The notes beneath the pieces are model-generated. The model was given only the letters and a program-made list of their open reading frames with translations. It did no database searches and was not told the origin of the DNA. A stretch of DNA of 64,000 bases. Origin: Stygiobacter sp. Its GTDB lineage: Bacteria > Pseudomonadota > Alphaproteobacteria > Rhodospirillales > Magnetospirillaceae. Within the stretch, counting starts at the first letter, position 1; the number at the start of each line of letters is the position of its first letter. The DNA is taken from assembly GCA_006218045.1 (NCBI GenBank), contig VBWB01000019.1, forward strand, positions 1 to 64,000, in the 5' to 3' direction. Positions 3,336 through 12,265 of the stretch are shown piece after piece. A program made the position numbers and the translations under genes.

Positions 3336-5039
3336 ATGTCCATTTACGACATCACCGGAAATTTCCGCATCGCCACCCGCATCTGGGCGGGCTTCATCGC
3401 CGTGCTGATGCTGCTGATCGGGGTGGCCGGAATCGGTTATTGGGGGGTGAACAGCGTGGGCGAGCATGTCGACGAGATTATGGATAGCGCCCATGAGACA
3501 CTCAAGATGCAGGCTATCGACCGCAATTTCGTCGGCGTGCGGCGCAACCAGATCGTTTGCGTTCAGTTGGGGCGGGAAAGCGCCCATGCGCAGCTTGAAA
3601 AGCGGCTCCGTCAAGTGCGCGACGGTCTGGCCGAATTCGCCAAGATCCCGGAGCTCAGACCGGATGAGGTGAAGGAGGTGGCGGCCATTCAGGCCAGTGT
3701 CGAGGCCTATAGCGGGATTCTCGATCAGGCGATCGCGGAACGCAGGCGCCTGGGCTTTGGCAAGGCCGCCAGCGGCGAGATCGCCCCCCGATGGGACGAG
3801 GATCTGGACAAGGCGGGCAATGCGGCCCGCGACCTGCTGGCAGCCTTCGTCGAGAGGAACCAGACCGAACTCGACCACATCATGGCCGATGCCGATGCCT
3901 TCGAGAAGCATACCGAGACGTTGGTGCTGGTCATATCGGCCCTCGCCCTCGCCCTGGGCGCTCTGCTGGCCTTCGGCACCGATTTCTCGATTTCGAATCC
4001 GATCCGCGCCATTACCACCATCATGAACAAGTTGAGGAATGGCGAGCGCCAGATCGATGTACCGTTCACCACCCTCAAAGACGAGGTCGGCGAAATGGCC
4101 TCGGCGGTCGCGGTGTTCAAGGAAAACCTGATCGAGGTCGAAAATCTGCGCGTCGAGCAGGAACGGCAAAAGGCCGAGGCAGAGATCGAGAAGAAGAGGT
4201 CCATCAACGAGCTGGCCGACAAGTTCGAGACCGGCGTCATGGGCATTGTCGGCTCGGTGTCCTCCTCCTCGCATCAGTTGCATGCCTCGGCGCAATCGCT
4301 TTCCGCCCTGGCGGAACAGACCCATCGCCAAGCGGCATCGGTGGCCTCCGCCTCGGAGGAGGCCTCGGCCAATGTCCAGACCGTGGCCTCGGCGACGGAG
4401 GAACTCTCCTCCTCGATCAGCGAGATCACCGCCCGGGTCGAGGATTCCGCTCATGTGTCGTCCAACGCGGTGGAGGAAGCCGCCAGGGTCAACCGGATGG
4501 TCCAGGGCTTGGCGGGGGCCGTCTCCAAGATCGGCGAGGTCGTCAGCCTGATCAACAATATCGCGGCGCAAACCAACCTGCTGGCGCTGAACGCCACAAT
4601 CGAGGCCGCCCGGGCGGGTGAGGCCGGAAAGGGGTTCGCCGTGGTGGCGGGCGAGGTCAAGAACCTCGCCAACCAGACGGGCCGGGCCACCGACGAAATC
4701 TCGTCGCAGATTTCCGCCGTCCAGCACGCGACGCGTGAGGCGGTCAGTGGCATCGAGGGCATTTCAGGGACCATCGCCAGGATCAGCGAGATATCGACCG
4801 CCATCGCCACGGCGGTCGAGGAGCAAAGTGCCGCGACCAGCGAGATCAGCCGCAGCGTCCAGCAGGCCTCCGAAGGCACCAGGCAGGTGACGGTGAATAT
4901 CGCCGGCGTGACCCTGGCCTCCACCGAGGCGGGGGCTGCCTCGCATCAAGTTCTCGACGCCGCCACCAATCTTTCGCAGCAGTCGGAGCGGTTGAAGACC
5001 GACGTTCATCGCTTCATCGAGCACCTGCGGGTGGGGTAG
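3336..5039 (+). CDS. Methyl-accepting chemotaxis protein
   Basis: The 567-residue chemoreceptor has a transmembrane helix near residues 15-37, a short periplasmic helical sensor of about 150 residues, a second transmembrane helix (about 192-212), a HAMP linker and a cytoplasmic signalling domain. The hairpin tip, [20 protein letters not shown], is the conserved CheA/CheW contact. The sensor resembles the four-helix-bundle class, but its ligand is unknown. I start at ATG 3336, preceded by GGAG and giving MSIYDITGNF, rather than an in-frame upstream codon inside the kinase gene. It lies 20 bp after the kinase, so the two may share a promoter. No che genes are nearby, so it must signal through a distant array. 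Confidence 0.92.
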   Translation: MSIYDITGNFRIATRIWAGFIAVLMLLIGVAGIGYWGVNSVGEHVDEIMDSAHETLKMQAIDRNFVGVRRNQIVCVQLGRESAHAQLEKRLRQVRDGLAEFAKIPELRPDEVKEVAAIQASVEAYSGILDQAIAERRRLGFGKAASGEIAPRWDEDLDKAGNAARDLLAAFVERNQTELDHIMADADAFEKHTETLVLVISALALALGALLAFGTDFSISNPIRAITTIMNKLRNGERQIDVPFTTLKDEVGEMASAVAVFKENLIEVENLRVEQERQKAEAEIEKKRSINELADKFETGVMGIVGSVSSSSHQLHASAQSLSALAEQTHRQAASVASASEEASANVQTVASATEELSSSISEITARVEDSAHVSSNAVEEAARVNRMVQGLAGAVSKIGEVVSLINNIAAQTNLLALNATIEAARAGEAGKGFAVVAGEVKNLANQTGRATDEISSQISAVQHATREAVSGIEGISGTIARISEISTAIATAVEEQSAATSEISRSVQQASEGTRQVTVNIAGVTLASTEAGAASHQVLDAATNLSQQSERLKTDVHRFIEHLRVG

Positions 5040-5830: not shown

Positions 5831-6751
5831 CTACCCCATCCATCGCGACCGGATCGGTGCCAGAGCCGGGCGGGCGGCGGGGGCGGTCGCCATGGCCGGC
5901 GCCCCCCGTGTCGGCAGCATCGCCATCGCTGTGGTCTCGTCGTTCAGCCGCAGGCCCATGGCGACGAGGCCGTGCAGGGCGGCGGTGGCGTAGACGAAGG
6001 TGTCCAGCGCCTCGTTGCGCTCGCCGTCCCGCTTGGGCTGCCACGAGCGGATCGGGCGGCCCCGGTCGTAGCGGGTGATGACCCGCTCGGCGGTGAACTG
6101 GCGGAAATAGTCGGCATCCATCCGCCGGGGGAAATGGATGGCGCCGGGGCCGGGTTCGGTCAGGCGCAGGCGGGCATAGAGGGTGTCCTTGACCGCATCG
6201 ACGCCGACGATGAACAGCGGCACCTTGCCGCGCACGCGGGTGGGGCGCCGCGGCCAGACCGGGATGCCGGCGCCGCCACGGCCCTTGATCGCCCAGATGC
6301 GCCGCGCCAGCCGGGTGCGGCAGAATTCGTAGGCGGCCTTGGTGTGGTGGCCGCCGGTGTCGATGCAGGCGGCGCGGATGGGCAGGTCGGCGACGGATTT
6401 GGGATGGGCGAAGGTGGTGGCGAGATAGGAATCGAGATCGGCCCAGACGCGCGGGCCGGAGGGATCGCCCCACAGCACGCGATACTCCACCACCCAGGAT
6501 TCCTCGTCGGCGCCCCAGGCGATCACTTGCACCTCGAGCCGGTCGCCCCAATCCTCGCGCCGGGCCATCAGCGGATCGGCGGGCACGGCGTCGCCGGCCT
6601 GGTCCTCCCAGGATTCGCCCAGCTTGGTGTTCACCCACACCTGGAGTCGGGGCGGATCGGATTTGACACGGCCATGCTCGGTGGCGATCTCGGCCCTGGT
6701 CTCCCAGGGAGAATAGAGGGCCGAGAGGTGGAAACCGGCGGTGCGACCGGG
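5831..6751 (-). pseudogene. Phage terminase large subunit (GpA type), C-terminal fragment
   Basis: An open frame of about 307 codons runs from just inside a TGA at 6752-6754 down to a stop at 5831. It encodes the nuclease half of a GpA-like terminase: GFHLSALYSPW near its start, then VNTKLGESWEDQ, CIDTGGHHT, WAIKGRGG and a C-terminal RNEALDTFVYATAALHG. The N-terminal ATPase half, with its Walker motifs, is missing. The fragment begins seven bases past the rsr stop codon, so the break is sharp. No other phage morphogenesis genes are present, so this is a prophage scar. An internal GTG at 6640 could start translation, but a working packaging enzyme is not expected. Confidence 0.8.
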
Positions 6752-6758
6752 TCATCGA

Positions 6759-8363
6759 TCACCCCTTCAGAAATCCGGCCACCACCTGCGGCACGGCGGC
6801 GTCGAAGCCGGCGCAGCCGAGCGACAGCGGGTCATCGTCGGGCACCACCGAACCGGCATTGGCGGTTGCCGCCAGCACCACCGCCTTCGCTGCCGGATTG
6901 ACCGTTTCACGATACCGCTTGAGCGCCTGAATAGGATGCTGCCGACCGGCCCAGGTTTCGTTGTCGGTGATGACGACGATGGCATCGACCTCCAGCTTCC
7001 GCCCCAGCGCGTAAGCCATCGGCAAGGCGACATCCGTCCCACCCCGCCACCGGCCGAACAGGCGCACCACGTCGTCAAGCCGCTGGCGAGGGGTGAGCGG
7101 GGCGCTGTGCAGTTCGGTGTCGAAGGCCACCACCTCCACCTTTCGTTCGGTTCGCACGAAGCCCATCGCCATGGCCGCCGCCGCCTCCATGGCGGACAGG
7201 GTGGGCGAGCCGGCGCAGCGCGTGCCATGCATGGAACCCGAGACATCGACAGCCACGAGGAGGCGCTTGCCGGTCGGCTCGATGGTGGCGAAGGCCCGGT
7301 CGAAGGCGCCGTCGAGCGCGTCCACCACCGCCGGAACCGGAATCCAGCTCAGCTTGCCGCGTTCGCCGTGCCCCTGGGCATAGGTCTTGAGCGCCAACAG
7401 AACCTGCACCGGGTGAATCCTGGCGCGCGACAATGCCTCGCCGTCGGCGAGGCGTCGGATAACGGTCGCGGCGGCCTCGGAGCCAATGTTCAGTAGGCCC
7501 ACTTGGCTGAGCTTGCCCAGGTTGCGGATCAGCGCACCCAGCGGCATGTCGGCCAGCAAGGACTCCCACACCTCTGGTGCGGTCAGCTTTTCGGTCGGCA
7601 CGGCTTCGCGCGGCAATCTCCGGTCGCGGATGATCGCCGCCGCTTCGGTCGGCCCGCTCGCCTCACGGATCCGGTAGAGGCCATCGACCAGCGGGAAGGC
7701 GGCGCGGGCGGCGCCGATCGCATCCGCTTGGTTGGGGTGGGCGATCCAGTCGAACAGGATCCGCGTCGCAGCTTCGTCGGTCAGGGGGTGGGCGAGGCGC
7801 AGCAGGTCGCGCAGCGCCCAGCCGCCACGGTTCATGTACTTCACCGCCTGAAGCGCCAGCCGATCCGAGTCCTGGCTGGTGAACCACCGGGCCACGCCGC
7901 GTCGCAATCCTCGGCCCCAGCCGCGGAAGCCTTCGACCATGTCGGCGAAGGCCAGGATGTGGGTGCCGGTCCGGGCGACCAGGGGGATCGCGGACAGGGC
8001 AGCCCGGCGCGTCGCTTCGTCTTCCGCCGCCGCGGCCATGGCCAGCACGAACAGGGCAGGGTCGTTGCGCGGTGCCCGACCGGCCTGGCTGATTTCGACG
8101 GTGCGGGCGACCACCCGCCGGCCGTCCTCAATCAGGCATCGCTGCACGGCCATGGCGTTGTCGCGCGTCAACGCCCGTTCCCCCACGTAATAGGTGCCGC
8201 CCTCGGACCCCAGCAGCAGGAAGCGGTCGAGCCGCCCCCAATCGCCCACTTCATACCAGTGGCCGCCGGCATTGTTGGGACTTTGCCCCGGCAGCGGCTC
8301 GCTTTGCGGAACCGCGTTCTGGGGTACGGCCTGACGAAGGCTGAAAAGCCGTCGGTACGTCAT
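6759..8363 (-). CDS. rsr: Ro60-like TROVE-domain protein Rsr
   Basis: The 534-residue protein is a bacterial homologue of the Ro 60-kDa autoantigen. An N-terminal alpha-helical TROVE/HEAT-repeat ring covers about residues 15-345. A C-terminal von Willebrand A domain (about 355-534) carries a MIDAS motif in AVDVSGSMHG plus TDVALP and a later ITDNETW segment. Ro proteins bind Y RNAs on the outer face of the ring and structured or damaged RNA through the central hole; in bacteria they work with exonucleases in rRNA maturation and RNA decay under stress. Here the gene follows four Y RNA folds and rtcB in the same direction. A strong ribosome site (AAGGAGGG, seven bases before ATG) fixes the start, 27 bp after the last Y RNA. 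Co-transcription with rtcB is likely. Confidence 0.92.
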   Translation of the reverse strand: MTYRRLFSLRQAVPQNAVPQSEPLPGQSPNNAGGHWYEVGDWGRLDRFLLLGSEGGTYYVGERALTRDNAMAVQRCLIEDGRRVVARTVEISQAGRAPRNDPALFVLAMAAAAEDEATRRAALSAIPLVARTGTHILAFADMVEGFRGWGRGLRRGVARWFTSQDSDRLALQAVKYMNRGGWALRDLLRLAHPLTDEAATRILFDWIAHPNQADAIGAARAAFPLVDGLYRIREASGPTEAAAIIRDRRLPREAVPTEKLTAPEVWESLLADMPLGALIRNLGKLSQVGLLNIGSEAAATVIRRLADGEALSRARIHPVQVLLALKTYAQGHGERGKLSWIPVPAVVDALDGAFDRAFATIEPTGKRLLVAVDVSGSMHGTRCAGSPTLSAMEAAAAMAMGFVRTERKVEVVAFDTELHSAPLTPRQRLDDVVRLFGRWRGGTDVALPMAYALGRKLEVDAIVVITDNETWAGRQHPIQALKRYRETVNPAAKAVVLAATANAGSVVPDDDPLSLGCAGFDAAVPQVVAGFLKG

Positions 8364-8390
8364 CGTTTACCCTCCTTATGTGTCTGGTTG

Positions 8391-8471
8391 GTCCTGCCGG
8401 ACGTGTCGTTGGTTTCGGCCTTTCCAAGGCGTTTCGATCGCGGTAACCGAAACCATCCGGCCCGGCAGGAC
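8391..8471 (-). ncRNA. Y RNA candidate 4 (minimal, 81 nt)
   Basis: On the minus strand the ends pair perfectly over 10 bp (8462-8471 with 8391-8400). Inside, GGTTTCGG (8447-8454) pairs perfectly with CCGAAACC (8411-8418). Between the two helices lies the asymmetric internal loop typical of Ro-binding Y RNA stems, with the box GGGCCGGAT on the 5' side and ACACGTCC on the 3' side. The distal loop is only about 28 bases and has no tRNA-like part. It ends 27 bp upstream of the rsr start codon, so it could also sit in the rsr 5' leader. The fold was paired by hand; expression is not shown. Confidence 0.75.
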
Positions 8472-8473
8472 GG

Positions 8474-8479
8474 AAAAAA
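8474..8479 (-). terminator. T-run after the Y RNA 3 closing stem
   Basis: Six T on the minus strand follow the 9-bp GC-rich closing helix of the third Y RNA by five bases. The arrangement resembles an intrinsic terminator and could end a transcript carrying Y RNAs 1-3 before Y RNA 4 and rsr. Read-through or processing is equally possible. Confidence 0.4.
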
Positions 8480-8484
8480 CTGGC

Positions 8485-8608
8485 GGAGCGGGCGTGACGC
8501 GCGGCTGGACGTTCCATCGGACCCGGGCATCTCGGGTGTGGCGGCGATTTTCAGTCGCCTGCTGGCCGCCAGCCAGCTACCGGTGATCCAACCACTCCGG
8601 CCCGCTCC
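8485..8608 (-). ncRNA. Y RNA candidate 3 (124 nt)
   Basis: The ends pair perfectly over 9 bp (GGAGCGGGC at 8600-8608 with GCCCGCTCC at 8485-8493). The inner helix is GGTTGG (8588-8593) with CCAGCC (8503-8508), with one G-U pair. The 5' box GGGCCGGAG and the 3' box TCACGCCC match the other three members. The distal region holds three small hairpins (around GCTGG/CCAGC, GGCGA/TCGCC and ACCCG/CGGGT). It has a GGTAGCTGG stretch that faintly recalls a tRNA D-arm, but no T-arm is present, so I do not call it a tRNA mimic. Confidence 0.65.
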
Positions 8609-8618
8609 GGACTCAAGC

Positions 8619-8743
8619 GGTTCCTGGGCGTGTTGGCGTGGAACGGACGGATCATGCTCTACCAGCTAAGCTACGGCGCCTTGCGGCGTCGGCCGGACTC
8701 GAACCGGCGACACTGATAACCGTCCCACTCCGGCCCAGGAGCC
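8619..8743 (-). ncRNA. Y RNA candidate 2, YrlA-like with tRNA-mimic module (125 nt)
   Basis: The outer stem pairs GGCTCCTGGGC (8733-8743) with GCCCAGGAACC (8619-8629), 10 of 11 positions. The inner Ro-type helix pairs GTGGGACGG (8720-8728) with CCGTTCCAC (8638-8646), nine pairs with one G-U. The 5' strand then reads TTATCA, as in animal and bacterial Y RNAs (GGTTATC), and the 3' box is CCAACACGCCC. The distal end is a circularly permuted tRNA-like module (separate entry). This is the known plan of YrlA RNAs, in which the Y stem binds the Ro protein and the tRNA mimic is the effector-binding end. A tRNA finder could misread this locus. Confidence 0.85.
8656..8708 (-). other. Circularly permuted tRNA-like module inside Y RNA 2
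   Basis: In transcript order there is first a T-arm: stem GCCGG/CCGGC around the seven-base loop TTCGAGT (8692-8708), making a perfect B-box GGTTCGAGTCC. Next comes an acceptor-like stem, CGACGCC with GGCGCCG (8685-8691 and 8674-8680), six of seven paired, capped by a GCAA tetraloop at 8681-8684. Two bases, TA, correspond to tRNA positions 8-9. A D-arm, GCTT-AGCTGGTA-GAGC (8656-8671), completes the fold with its GG loop pair. Relative to a true tRNA the 3' half comes before the 5' half and the anticodon arm is replaced by the Y RNA stem. There is no CCA end. Confidence 0.88.
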
Positions 8744-8755
8744 GGAAAATAATGT

Positions 8756-8860
8756 CCGCCGGGCGTGTTGGCGGTCTTGGCGTGTTGACCACGGTGTTGG
8801 CCGTGGCGACCGGCGCTGTTCCGGTCCAGGAGCGATAACCAAAACCTTCCGGCCCGGCGG
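8756..8860 (-). ncRNA. Y RNA candidate 1 (105 nt)
   Basis: The ends pair perfectly over 9 bp (CCGCCGGGC at 8852-8860 with GCCCGGCGG at 8756-8764). The inner helix is GGTTTTGG (8839-8846) with CCAAGACC (8773-8780), eight pairs with one G-U, followed by TTATCG as in the Y RNA consensus. The 5' box is GGGCCGGAA and the 3' box GCCAACACGCCC, identical to that of Y RNA 2 over 12 bases. The distal part forms two 6-bp hairpins (GACCGG/CCGGTC and CCACGG/CCGTGG) rather than a tRNA mimic. It starts 40 bp downstream of the rtcB stop codon. Confidence 0.75.
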
Positions 8861-8899
8861 CCGTTGCACTCTTCTCTCACCTATTGGTGACAGTTCCGG

Positions 8900-10117
8900 T
8901 CACCCCTTCACGCAGACGACCTGCTTCAGCGTGTGGACGATCTCGACCAGATCGGCTTGGGCGGCCATGACCGCGTCGATGTCCTTGTAGGCGCCGGGCG
9001 TTTCGTCGAGCACGTCGGCATCCTTGCGGCATTCCACACCGGCGGTCGCGGTTGCGTGATCCTCCAGCGTGAACCGCTTCGTGGCGGCATTGCGGCTCAT
9101 GGCGCGTCCAGCCCCGTGCGAGCACGAGCAGAAGCTTTCCGGGTTGCCCTTGCCCCGCACGATGAACGACTTCGCCCCCATGGATCCGGGGATGATGCCG
9201 AGGTCGCCCGCCATCGCCCGCACCGCTCCCTTGCGGGTCAGCAGCACGGTCTGGCCGAAATGCTTCTCGGTATTGACGTAATTGTGGTGGCAGTTCACCG
9301 CCATTTCATCCACGCCGATGTCGGGGAAGAACCGCCCCAGCGCCAGCAGCACCGCGTCCATCATCAGTTGGCGGTTGGTACGGGCGAATCTCTGCGCCCA
9401 CGACACCGCGTGCATGTACTGGGCGAAATGCTCGGTCCCCTCGGGGAAATAGGCGAGGTCGGAATCGGGCAGGCGGATGAAGAACCGTTCCATGTCCTTC
9501 TTCGCCAACTCGACGAACACCGAGCCGATCCGGTTGCCGATGCCGCGCGAGCCCGAATGCAGCATCACCCAAAGGGCGCCGGACTCGTCCAGGCACAGCT
9601 CGATGAAGTGGTTGCCGGTGCCGAGCGTGCCCAGGTGTTCCACGGTCCTGCCGCTGGCCACCTTGGGCTGGGCCTCGCGGATGCGGGCGAAACCGGGCTC
9701 CAGTTCCGCCCAGGCCGCCGCGGCCGCCTCGGGCGGATCGCCCCAGCTGCCTCGGTCGCCGGCACCGCCGTTGTCGGTGCGCCCATGCGGCACCGCCGCC
9801 TCGATGGCGGTGCGGATGGGATGCAGATCGTCCGGCAGGTGCTCGGCCCGCACATTGGTGCGCACCGCTATCATGCCGCAGCCGATATCGACGCCGACCG
9901 CCGCCGGAATGATGGCGCCCTTGGTGGCGATCACGCTGCCCACCGTGGCGCCCATGCCCCAATGGACGTCGGGCATGGCGGCGACATGGTGGAAGACGAA
10001 GGGCAGGCCGGCGACGTTGCCCAACTGCTGCCGGGCCATGTCTTCGACCGGCACGCCGTTGGTCCACGCCTTGATCGGCACGCCGCCCTTGACGGGGATG
10101 TAATCGTAATTCGCCAT
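8900..10117 (-). CDS. rtcB: RNA-splicing ligase RtcB
   Basis: The 405-residue enzyme joins 2',3'-cyclic phosphate (via 3'-phosphate) and 5'-OH RNA ends using GTP and Mn2+. Conserved elements seen are DVHWGMGATVGSV, VGVDIGCGM (metal-binding Asp and Cys), GTGNHFIEL, MLHSGSRGIG, CHHNY (metal His residues), and SCSHGAGRAMSR with the His that becomes guanylylated. The length is typical of the 400-residue bacterial subfamily. The ATG at 10117, giving MANYDYIPVKG, follows GGAGGG by seven bases and is preferred over upstream in-frame codons that run through a hairpin. Neighbours are four Y RNAs and rsr downstream; there is no rtcA cyclase and no archease in the window. Function in repairing cleaved tRNA or rRNA is inferred from the family. 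Confidence 0.95.
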   Translation of the reverse strand: MANYDYIPVKGGVPIKAWTNGVPVEDMARQQLGNVAGLPFVFHHVAAMPDVHWGMGATVGSVIATKGAIIPAAVGVDIGCGMIAVRTNVRAEHLPDDLHPIRTAIEAAVPHGRTDNGGAGDRGSWGDPPEAAAAAWAELEPGFARIREAQPKVASGRTVEHLGTLGTGNHFIELCLDESGALWVMLHSGSRGIGNRIGSVFVELAKKDMERFFIRLPDSDLAYFPEGTEHFAQYMHAVSWAQRFARTNRQLMMDAVLLALGRFFPDIGVDEMAVNCHHNYVNTEKHFGQTVLLTRKGAVRAMAGDLGIIPGSMGAKSFIVRGKGNPESFCSCSHGAGRAMSRNAATKRFTLEDHATATAGVECRKDADVLDETPGAYKDIDAVMAAQADLVEIVHTLKQVVCVKG

Positions 10118-10152
10118 CTCGTTACCCTCCGGCCGCCCGACAAGCGGCCAAT

Positions 10153-10200
10153 AAAAAACCGACGCCCCTCCGAAGGCAAAACCTGCGGAGGGGCGTCGGT
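10153..10200 (-). terminator. Strong terminator/attenuator hairpin in the rtcB leader
   Basis: A perfect 15-bp GC-rich stem (10186-10200 with 10158-10172) around a 13-base loop is followed on the minus strand by six T (10158-10153). It lies about 35 bases before the rtcB ATG. It may end transcription from the two small upstream genes (10443-11153), or act as a conditional attenuator for rtcB. The flanking 10118-10442 stretch (325 bp without a gene) holds this hairpin, a repeated GATTGCACC (at about 10261 and 10229) and several GTGAC/GTCAC half-sites between 10336 and 10446 that could bind a regulator. Confidence 0.8.
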
Positions 10201-10442
10201 TCCAAACCAGCCCTGTATGCGGTGCAATCCGCCTACACGGCTCCCTCCCTGGAGCGGGTGCAATCACCCAGCACGAACATCAGGCACGCGGATAGGACCG
10301 CGGCTTTGATGTTGGCAGGATATGAGCGGAACCGTGTCACAGATGGTCACCCTTCAAGCGAAAGATGTAATTTTGTACAGTGACGGCGAGGCGTGGCGCA
10401 AGCCTGCATCCGGGCCGCGAATGGCAGGGGTGACCGAGTTTG

Positions 10443-10688
10443 TCACGTCGGCCGGTCGTCATCGTCAACGCTGCCAATCCACTCCCCGGGCAGGCACTGA
10501 TCCGGCTGCCAATCGAATGCCTCTTGAGCCGCCCAGAAAGCTTCAATCTCGTCTCTTGGCACGGGAGGGAACCATATCCACTCTCGGTAGCCGTAATCCT
10601 CTTCTACCGGAATGCAGAACTCCTCCCGGCACCGGCGTTTCAGGCTATCGATGCCCATGGGCACCCCGAATTCTAAGTTGGCGACCAT
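10443..10688 (-). CDS. Hypothetical 81-residue acidic protein
   Basis: I do not recognise this small protein. It is rich in Trp, Glu and Asp (for example YGYREWIWFPPVPRDEIEAFW), has two Cys near the middle, and ends in a run of Asp residues. There is no signal peptide or membrane segment. An alternative start is the internal Met at residue 11. It lies 33 bp downstream of another unknown gene and upstream of rtcB on the same strand, so it may belong to the RNA-repair operon, although a terminator-like hairpin separates it from rtcB. A longer frame on the plus strand (10322-10798) overlaps it and looks non-coding. Confidence 0.5.
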   Translation of the reverse strand: MVANLEFGVPMGIDSLKRRCREEFCIPVEEDYGYREWIWFPPVPRDEIEAFWAAQEAFDWQPDQCLPGEWIGSVDDDDRPT

Positions 10689-10721
10689 CTTGGTTGGTGG
10701 GTGTGTCCAAACTGGATACCC

Positions 10722-11153
10722 TTATGGCGAGTGAAGATTTGGTTCCGCCGGAACCTCGGTGTCGATGGTCCGGGTCACTTGCGGATCACGCCAGATAGCT
10801 TCCAGCAGAGGCCATTGCCGCGACCCAAAAGGCGACACCAGCCGGCGGACCGGCAAGGGGATGAGGGAAAAATAGGCGGCAAGGGCGGCGCGCGAGGCGT
10901 ACCAGGCTTCGTCGCGCGGGCCGTCGGGAAGCAGCCATGTTCCGTGGCGCCCCAGGACCGGGCGATCTGGTTCAAAGGGAATCCGGGTATTCTCATCCTC
11001 CAATGAAACGGTCCAGCACCCGAAAGTCTTGTCCCAGCGCCCATAAAGGCGACGCCATCGGTCGCCCTCCTCGATCAGAACATCATCCTCAAGCCGCCAG
11101 ATTGCGGCGTGCGGGGCATCTGTGGTCGCCATGGGCATGGGGGGGGCGTTCAT
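10722..11153 (-). CDS. Hypothetical 143-residue protein divergent from WYL regulator
   Basis: The family is unknown to me. The protein has a beta-rich N-terminal half (IWRLEDDVLIEEGDRWRRLY, then WDKTFGCWTVSL) that looks like a small barrel or sheet, and a C-terminal half with WLLPDGPRDEAWYASRAAL. No signal peptide is present. It is the first gene leftward from the intergenic palindrome shared with the WYL regulator, so it is probably controlled by it. Position suggests a role with RtcB and Rsr, but nothing in the sequence defines an activity. Confidence 0.6.
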   Translation of the reverse strand: MNAPPMPMATTDAPHAAIWRLEDDVLIEEGDRWRRLYGRWDKTFGCWTVSLEDENTRIPFEPDRPVLGRHGTWLLPDGPRDEAWYASRAALAAYFSLIPLPVRRLVSPFGSRQWPLLEAIWRDPQVTRTIDTEVPAEPNLHSP

Positions 11154-11187
11154 GTGGTCACCTTAACGCCCAGGGGTGACAGAATAG

Positions 11188-11242
11188 GACACGTTTTGTT
11201 CCGGTTGATGATCCGACCTTCATCCCATCATCAACACGTGTC
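11188..11242. promoter_or_regulatory. Nested palindrome between divergent genes, candidate WYL operator
   Basis: GACACG (11188-11193) mirrors CGTGTC (11237-11242), and inside it GTTGATGAT (11204-11212) mirrors ATCATCAAC (11227-11235), perfect over nine bases. The element fills the 125-bp gap between the unknown gene (start 11153) and the WYL gene (start 11279). It may be a two-part operator, or a hairpin in the WYL leader. Confidence 0.5.
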
Positions 11243-11278
11243 AGAATTGGCTCTGTTCGATGGAGAAAGGGGGACGGC

Positions 11279-12265
11279 GTGCGCTACGAGAAGGCCGACA
11301 ATCTGCTTCAACTGGCGCTGGAGATGCAGGCGGCGCGCGGCGGGCTGTCGCTGAAGGACATCGAGGAGAAATTCGGCGTCGGCCGACGCACAGCCATGCG
11401 CATGCGTGACGCGGTGCTGCGGAACTTCCCCCAATGCGAGGAGGTCGAGACCGACGAGCGCATCAAGCGCTGGCGCATACCGTCGGGCACGCTCGACCGC
11501 CTGATCAACTTCACCGCCGACGAACTGGCGGCCTTGGAGAGTGCCATCCGTCTGTTCGACCGCGATAATCGCGAGGGCGAGGCCGCCAGCCTGTCCGACC
11601 TGTCCGGCAAGCTCCGCGCCCTATTGAAGCCGGATGTCGCCCGCAAGGTCGAACCCGATCTGGAGGCGCTGCTGGAGGCCGAAGGGCTGGCCATGCGTCC
11701 GGGGCCGCGTCCCCGGATCAAGGTGCTGGTGGTCGAGGATCTGCGCGAGGCGATCAAGGCCTGTCGCAAGGTCCGCATCCGCTACCGCAACCGCCGCACC
11801 AGGAAGACCAACGAACGGCTGGTCCATCCCTATGGCTTCCTGCACGGCCATCGCAATTATCTGGTCGGCTGGCACGAGAACCCCAAGGCCAACGCCATCG
11901 CGCTGTTCAGCCTGCCCAATATCGAGTCCGTCGAGATTTTGTCCGACACCTTCGTGCGCGATCCAGGCTTCGACCTAGCCGCCTTCGCCGCCCGCTCGTT
12001 CGGCTTGTTCCAGGAGGAGCCCTACGACGTGGTCTGGCGCTTCGCCATGGAAGCGGCCGAGGATGCCGCCGACTTCGTCTTCCACCCCAGCCAAAGCCTG
12101 GAACGGCAAGACGATGGGGGACTGATCGTCCGCTTCAAGGCCGGCAGCGACCTGGAAATGGCCTGGCATCTCTACACCTGGGGCGACAAGGTCGAGGTGC
12201 TGGAACCGCCTCGGCTGGCCGAGATGGTCCACGGGCAAAGGACCGCGTGGCCGGCATTGCCGTGA
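11279..12265 (+). CDS. WYL-domain transcriptional regulator
   Basis: The 328-residue protein has an N-terminal winged helix-turn-helix (about residues 1-75, with GLSLKDIEEKFGVGRRTAMR), a helical linker, and a WYL domain (about 145-230) with the variant core NYLVGWHENPKANAIALFSL. A C-terminal extension (about 240-328, the WCX region) follows. WYL domains bind nucleic acid or nucleotide ligands and often govern genes for DNA or RNA damage and defence. The GTG start is chosen for its AAAGGGGGA ribosome site. The gene diverges from the unknown gene/rtcB/Y RNA/rsr group across a nested palindrome and probably regulates it, in the place where RtcR controls rtcBA in enterobacteria. That link is inferred from position. 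Confidence 0.88.
   Translation: MRYEKADNLLQLALEMQAARGGLSLKDIEEKFGVGRRTAMRMRDAVLRNFPQCEEVETDERIKRWRIPSGTLDRLINFTADELAALESAIRLFDRDNREGEAASLSDLSGKLRALLKPDVARKVEPDLEALLEAEGLAMRPGPRPRIKVLVVEDLREAIKACRKVRIRYRNRRTRKTNERLVHPYGFLHGHRNYLVGWHENPKANAIALFSLPNIESVEILSDTFVRDPGFDLAAFAARSFGLFQEEPYDVVWRFAMEAAEDAADFVFHPSQSLERQDDGGLIVRFKAGSDLEMAWHLYTWGDKVEVLEPPRLAEMVHGQRTAWPALP

Follow-up and report, generated by a model that had tools for sequence, protein, structure and literature searches.

Known bacterial RNA repair operons have, in the available portions of two published accounts (PMC7790460, PMC9879122), the gene order rsr-yrlB-yrlA-rtcB-rtcA. The available part of the source on Listeria phage CKA15 (PMC12282133) describes an Rsr-like gene preceded, at no more than 2 kb, by abundant non-coding transcripts of the same orientation, and the putative Y RNAs there are not firmly assigned. 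Excerpts of further sources (PMC8394870, PMC4726728, PMC9569102, PMC7824862, PMC3997798) belong to the same background. Among the literature matches listed, from partial texts and a search short of the field's main papers, neither a Y RNA in an rsr leader nor autoregulation by Rsr was found; the frequency of the leader position is counted here, and we make no claim of priority for it.

The DNA analyzed here (the window, a stretch of 64,000 nucleotides from Stygiobacter sp.) carries on its minus strand rtcB (10117-8900), four Y RNAs (Y1-Y4) and rsr (8363-6759), in that order. The locus resembles those of Salmonella YrlA and YrlB and of the D. radiodurans Y RNA in that Y4 has a Y-type lower-stem motif, is encoded beside rsr and rtcB, and has in Y2 a sister with a tRNA-like module. 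It departs from the YrlA/YrlB operons in having four Y RNAs, in the order rtcB-Y1-Y4-rsr, and in placing directly before rsr a Y RNA devoid of a tRNA-like module, and from known RNA repair operons in that the divergent neighbor (11279-12265) encodes a WYL protein and not RtcR. Putative Y RNAs upstream of an rsr-like gene on the same strand are a feature shared with CKA15, as far as the available part of that account goes. Our preferred reading, to which we assign a probability of roughly 0.6, is that Y4 is a minimal Y RNA, the last of four in tandem, that is most likely co-transcribed with rsr and processed to a free Y RNA.

The rtcB-Y-rsr locus

Y RNAs were sought on both strands of the window with a script that scores a lower stem, a CGRA-type loop, an upper stem and GGTTA (the Y-like search), and with two covariance models: R1, from an alignment (A3) of 12 leader Y RNAs from IMG/VR loci where Rsr shares no more than 52% identity with that of the window, and R2, from an alignment (A4) of 117 Y RNA matches that took in the window's own locus (L010) among its training sources. 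R2 matches all four Y RNAs of the window, and R1 matches Y1, Y4 and Y2 (E 1.6e-5 to 6.9e-5) and not Y3. Y1 (8756-8860, minus strand), with a Y-like score of 44.9, is followed by ACATTATTTT and has a weak Rfam match, at 28.3 bits against a gathering score of 38, to the nematode RNA family RF01656. Y2 (8622-8740, minus strand; score 43.8) is YrlA-like, a tRNA mimic with T-arm sequence before D-arm sequence, and matches RF02553 (YrlA) at 46.7 bits and an E of 2.9e-9, below the gathering score of 69; an ordinary tRNA gene was rejected as a reading of its tRNA-like part, as ARAGORN finds no tRNA in the window. Compared with positions 4609-4741 of the related locus L001, Y2 keeps the lower stem and differs strongly in the apical module: that of the window mimics a tRNA, with T- and D-arm, and that of L001 is a T-arm-like sequence in different surroundings. 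Y3 (8484-8609, minus strand) folds into a long form with extra hairpins in its apical part. Its score of 37.6 alone is not above the best shuffle (40.6), and its support comes from its place between Y2 and Y4 and from its R2 match (32.2 bits, E 0.0039). The lower stem of Y3 is followed, 4 nt on, by a TTTTTT run (8474-8479, minus strand), which is kept in L001 and is absent between the last two Y RNAs of genome G042 (L061/L167).

The rsr gene (6759-8363, minus strand) encodes a Ro60-like TROVE and vWA protein of 534 residues, with PF25045 and PF05731 above cut-off, that is matched over nearly its full length by the solved D. radiodurans Rsr (2nvo, E 6.6e-107) and vertebrate Ro60 (1yvp, E 2.3e-108); the match to NF041674 has an E of 1.6e-139, but its 466 bits fall short of the curated cut-off of 900. 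A Shine-Dalgarno-like (SD) sequence, AAGGAGGG (8370-8377, minus strand), read directly, begins 13 nt after the 3' end of Y4. The gene is rare in the host family, matching in 4 of 55 genomes, one of which has a remnant only; Magnetospirillum sp. UT-4, close to the window genome, has an Rsr 95% identical. The remnant (L062, L063; G047:C74:9335-9658), in another genus of the family, is 97-98% identical to the window's protein and has residues 66-487 missing, and R2 lists no Y RNA across the surrounding 10 kb (L175).

Upstream of the array, rtcB (8900-10117, minus strand) encodes an RNA ligase (PF01139, E 4.9e-131). Its leader (10118-10330) is strongly structured (z -6.9), with a long GC-rich hairpin and then TTTTTT just before the rtcB start, an arrangement that is also present in L176 and looks like an attenuator or terminator. 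Farther upstream are two small minus-strand ORFs, 10446-10688 (81 aa) and 10725-11153 (143 aa), neither of which has a match in Pfam or NCBIfam at E up to 0.01. In G042, rtcB is directly preceded on its own strand by tRNA-Gln and tRNA-Phe genes (L167, 5651-5816), with a tRNA-Cys-like sequence, without an ARAGORN call, farther upstream; these are possibly spare tRNAs in an RNA repair operon. Downstream of rsr, the next same-strand ORF (5834-6640) is a phage terminase GpA nuclease-domain piece, followed by a MazE-like/PIN pair. Because this terminase piece adjoins the locus and a near-identical copy of the UT-4 locus (L011) occurs on an IMG/VR contig, the operon may border a prophage.

Y4 and its place before rsr

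Y4 (8391-8471, minus strand) consists of a 12-bp lower stem (8471-8460 with 8402-8391, including one G-U pair), an internal loop of CGGA (8459-8456) and ACGACAC (8409-8403), a 9-bp upper stem (8455-8447 with 8418-8410), and an apical part of 28 nt (8446-8419) that holds no tRNA-like module. Its lower stem is the longest of the four in the window (12 versus 9, 8 and 10). The initial annotation had proposed a minimal Y-type hairpin with a bare loop just upstream of rsr, which these data bear out on the minus strand, and perfect stems of 10 and 8 bp, which are corrected here to 12 and 9 pairs. It was also right that TTTTTT lies after Y3 and before Y4, but the helix starts 2 bases and not five after that run, and the interval of 8391-8479 assigned to Y4 takes in the run itself (8479-8474). 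The distance of 27 bp to rsr agrees with our reading: Y4 ends at 8391, the spacer occupies 8390-8364 (minus strand; 27 nt, identical in the close relative L001), and the ATG is at 8363.

Y4 is a genuine Y RNA. It has the lower stem, the C-G-R-A-type internal loop and the upper stem ending in GG before TTA that make up the bacterial consensus in the present comparison, and it is encoded beside, and 27 nt upstream of, a TROVE/vWA Rsr gene; the tRNA-like effector module with T and D arms that marks YrlA (RF02553) is lacking. In the Y-like search it scores 54.2, the maximum for both strands of the window, and its predicted fold alone (-43.9 kcal/mol, z -4.9) is equaled by 0 of 200 shuffles. R1 matches it at 37.4 bits (E 2e-5 for 64 kb), and R2, with the window's own locus in its training set, at 49.5 bits. 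At the gathering threshold Rfam gives no match in the window, and a search of 8300-8950 at the looser limit of E up to 5 gives a YrlA match for Y2 and none for Y4. A hairpin arising by chance and having no Y RNA function might be imagined in so GC-rich a genome, and the Y-like search does return many weak matches in the window, and 6-16 from each shuffle of the minus strand; however, Y4 tops the window and exceeds the best scores of 10 dinucleotide shuffles of the minus strand (26.3-40.6), is matched by a covariance model derived from other loci, and has a motif and a position that recur in relatives. Covariation over the 117 Y RNAs of A4 is strong, with 18 of 18 model pairs changing on both sides and 94.0% of cells pairing versus 61.1% when shuffled, and 16 of 21 pairs in the 12 leader Y RNAs of A3, counts that lean towards structure since both alignments were picked or aligned by pairing. 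We regard a chance hairpin as very improbable. Nor does Y4 have the form of an intrinsic terminator or attenuator, as no T-run follows its hairpin.

Leader Y RNAs among Rsr clusters

To count how often a Y RNA precedes rsr, R2 was run on 132 of 176 loci; those outside the run were by eye near-duplicates, truncated or partial matches, or superseded by longer stretches. Matches with E up to 0.05 were counted (287 of the 328 listed at E up to 1), the dropped rows being 37 weaker ones and the window's own four, which are copies of L010. Removal of L152 and its 4 matches, for which the rsr start could not be set, gave 131 loci and 283 matches, and these loci fall into 108 Rsr clusters at 80% identity. 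Start codons of rsr were chosen by script from SD, codon and alignment, which may misplace some gaps by a few codons.

A Y RNA in the leader position before rsr is common. Y RNAs lie upstream of rsr in 75 of the 108 clusters and only downstream in 6, and 27 have no Y match. In 44 of the 108 (with a genome locus as representative in ten and an IMG/VR contig in 34), the last Y RNA ends 13-58 nt before the rsr start (median 26.5), a number that may be too low, with weaker uncounted rows near the gene match in L105, L133, L150, L100, L030, L033, L036 and L037; in 31 of the 75 clusters with upstream Y RNAs the last is more than 60 bases from rsr. None of the 283 assigned matches at the 131 loci is antisense to rsr. 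The arrays are tightly packed, with a median gap between Y RNAs of 15 and 99 of 149 gaps no longer than 30 nt, and the median distance from the Y 3' end to the SD is 13 nt (measured in 43 of the 44 leaders). A short Y RNA precedes rsr by 26 nt in L001 (Rsr 95% identical to the window's), by 28 nt in L167 (76%), by 32 nt in L170 (about 60% over the 226 residues compared) and by about 20 nt in L012 (52%), and a Y RNA of the tRNA-mimic type precedes it by 33 nt in L174 (63%).

T-runs follow 6 of the 44 leader Y RNAs and 16 of the 180 others, against about 2.7% and 2.2%, respectively, at random positions in the same upstream regions. This excess is consistent with attenuation, in which Y hairpins with T-runs act as leaky intrinsic terminators that yield many Y RNAs per rsr message, and in which Rsr on a nascent stem could tune read-through; the terminator in the window would be the T-run of Y3, and Y4-rsr the part reached by read-through. 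Y3 (CCAGTTTTTT) and Y1 carry T-run tails, and L101 and L156 have a conventional-looking hairpin and T-run between the last Y RNA and rsr, by which their arrays may be ended before that gene. Most Y RNAs, Y4 included, nevertheless have no T-run, there is none between the last two of G042, the hairpin loops are long for intrinsic terminators, and the Y3 run begins 4 nt after the stem. Our terminator scan covered loops of 3-8 and could neither flag nor exclude Y hairpins. On balance, attenuation is an improbable account of the array.

Transcription and possible control of rsr

No sigma-70-like promoter was found on either strand of 8300-11300 by a simple consensus scan, which is blind to other promoter types and from which 0.7 matches would be expected by chance. 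Between rtcB and Y1, a pattern scan identified an operator-like palindrome, GGTGACN7GTCACC (8886-8904, minus strand), at the same place in L001 and L167; an earlier reading with a 6-base spacer was wrong, the correct spacer being 7. A near-perfect copy lies upstream of rtcB (10429-10447) and one-mismatch copies at 10334-10351 and 11175-11192, so that copies are spread around the rtcB-Y-rsr locus and also precede the divergent WYL regulator. The four sites give 6 strand matches versus 1.24 expected, a number reached in 0 of 100 shuffles, in a control that is not blind, the pattern having been chosen after the sites were seen; genome-wide there are 13 exact strand matches at 9 sites, two at this locus. 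The palindrome at 8886-8904 is possibly a regulatory site for the Y array and rsr, and it may be bound by the divergent WYL protein.

Y4 would lie in the rsr leader whether transcription starts near the palindrome or reads through from rtcB. This position is likely because Y4 is in the sense orientation to rsr, the gap is 27 bases, no sigma-70-like promoter was found, and the arrangement recurs in 44 of the 108 clusters. Against a single transcript for the array and rsr, the scan turned up no sigma-70 promoter to mark out the unit, and the T-run after Y3 could reduce read-through, partly separating Y1-Y3 from Y4-rsr.

The initial annotation went further and proposed Y4 as an autoregulatory leader, of which the leader position stands as likely. 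Ribosomal protein operons are an example of autogenously controlled leaders. The window is like them in that the probable leader of rsr holds an RNA of the kind that the encoded protein targets, with position and strand that fit; it differs in that Y4 looks like an ordinary family member and has a position that is not conserved across relatives. Under autogenous control Y4 would be the operator through which the level of Rsr follows the supply of Y RNA: once free Y RNAs were saturated, Rsr would bind Y4 in cis and either keep the 30S subunit from loading at the SD, 13 nt off, or direct cleavage of the leader. The frequency and closeness of leader Y RNAs accord with this, as do the stems that end 13-17 nt before the start in L094, L131, L139, L090 and L159, a distance at which bound protein would be expected to collide with the 30S subunit; from this geometry, hindrance of ribosomes by Rsr bound to Y4 in cis is plausible. 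The unchanged 27-nt spacer in L001 would also fit a leader function, but is a weak sign because the rsr third codon positions differ at only 62 of 534.

Comparative tests of form, evolution, masking and spacing give no sign of a dedicated operator. As to form, the short type is not significantly enriched in leaders (27/44 versus 91/180 of the others, p 0.24); that the slot favors the minimal form has no support from either of two detectors run on overlapping loci, the other giving 18/25 versus 52/94 (p 0.17). The T-arm motif is present in 15 of the 44 leader Y RNAs and 69 of the 180 others (p 0.73). A quick FastTree of Rsr, covering 106 of the 108 representatives and leaving 31 of its 103 branches open, shows a labile leader state, with 24 changes over 80 rows against a shuffled mean of 26.6 (29 of 200 shuffles have 24 or fewer), and the short and long forms among 43 leaders change 14 times (shuffled mean 13.8). 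Orthologues thus do not conserve an element at this place, and in addition to the 31 clusters whose upstream Y RNAs include no leader, 6 have Y RNAs only downstream. Masking of the ribosome-binding site by Y4 was rejected, since the window's SD has a predicted unpaired value of 0.66 whether or not Y4 is included (0.55-0.63 when more upstream RNA is added), and over the 44 leaders predicted accessibility is 0.44 with the Y RNA versus 0.45 without it (p 0.44), so that no RNA switch is visible. The median distance from Y RNA to SD (13) resembles one more gap between Y RNAs (15). Stem strength leans slightly towards an operator: leader lower stems score 19.7 versus 18.3 for others in the same array (p 0.06) and are strongest in 16 of 39 arrays (11.8 expected), and that of Y4 is the longest in the window. 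Taken with these tests, autogenous control through Y4 is unlikely, if far from negligible.

We favor instead the reading of Y4 as an ordinary member of the array, because leader Y RNAs are not significantly distinct in type and the tree shows the leader position to be labile. Y1-Y4 and rsr would most likely form one transcript, by read-through from rtcB, by a start near the palindrome before Y1, or both. The 12-bp lower stem and CGGA loop of Y4 would be the part bound by Rsr, and processing would release Y4 as a free Y RNA without a tRNA-like effector module which, carrying no tRNA mimic, could occupy or gate Rsr. Its location 27 bases before the ATG would reflect tight packing of the array with room left for a ribosome-binding site.

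A broader proposal is that leader-embedded Y RNAs are a widespread and repeatedly evolved feedback device in bacteria and phages, in which Rsr reads the supply of free Y RNAs through their competition with the Y RNA in its own message, stopping translation or triggering leader cleavage when the free Y RNAs are exhausted; we consider this doubtful. How Ro60-type proteins are balanced with Y RNAs is unsettled in the parts of the literature surveyed, and the 44 of 108 clusters in which a Y RNA stops a few bases short of the ribosome-binding site of rsr offer a simple system in which cis feedback could be examined. The array displays short and tRNA-mimic Y RNAs side by side, and the leader slot accepts either.
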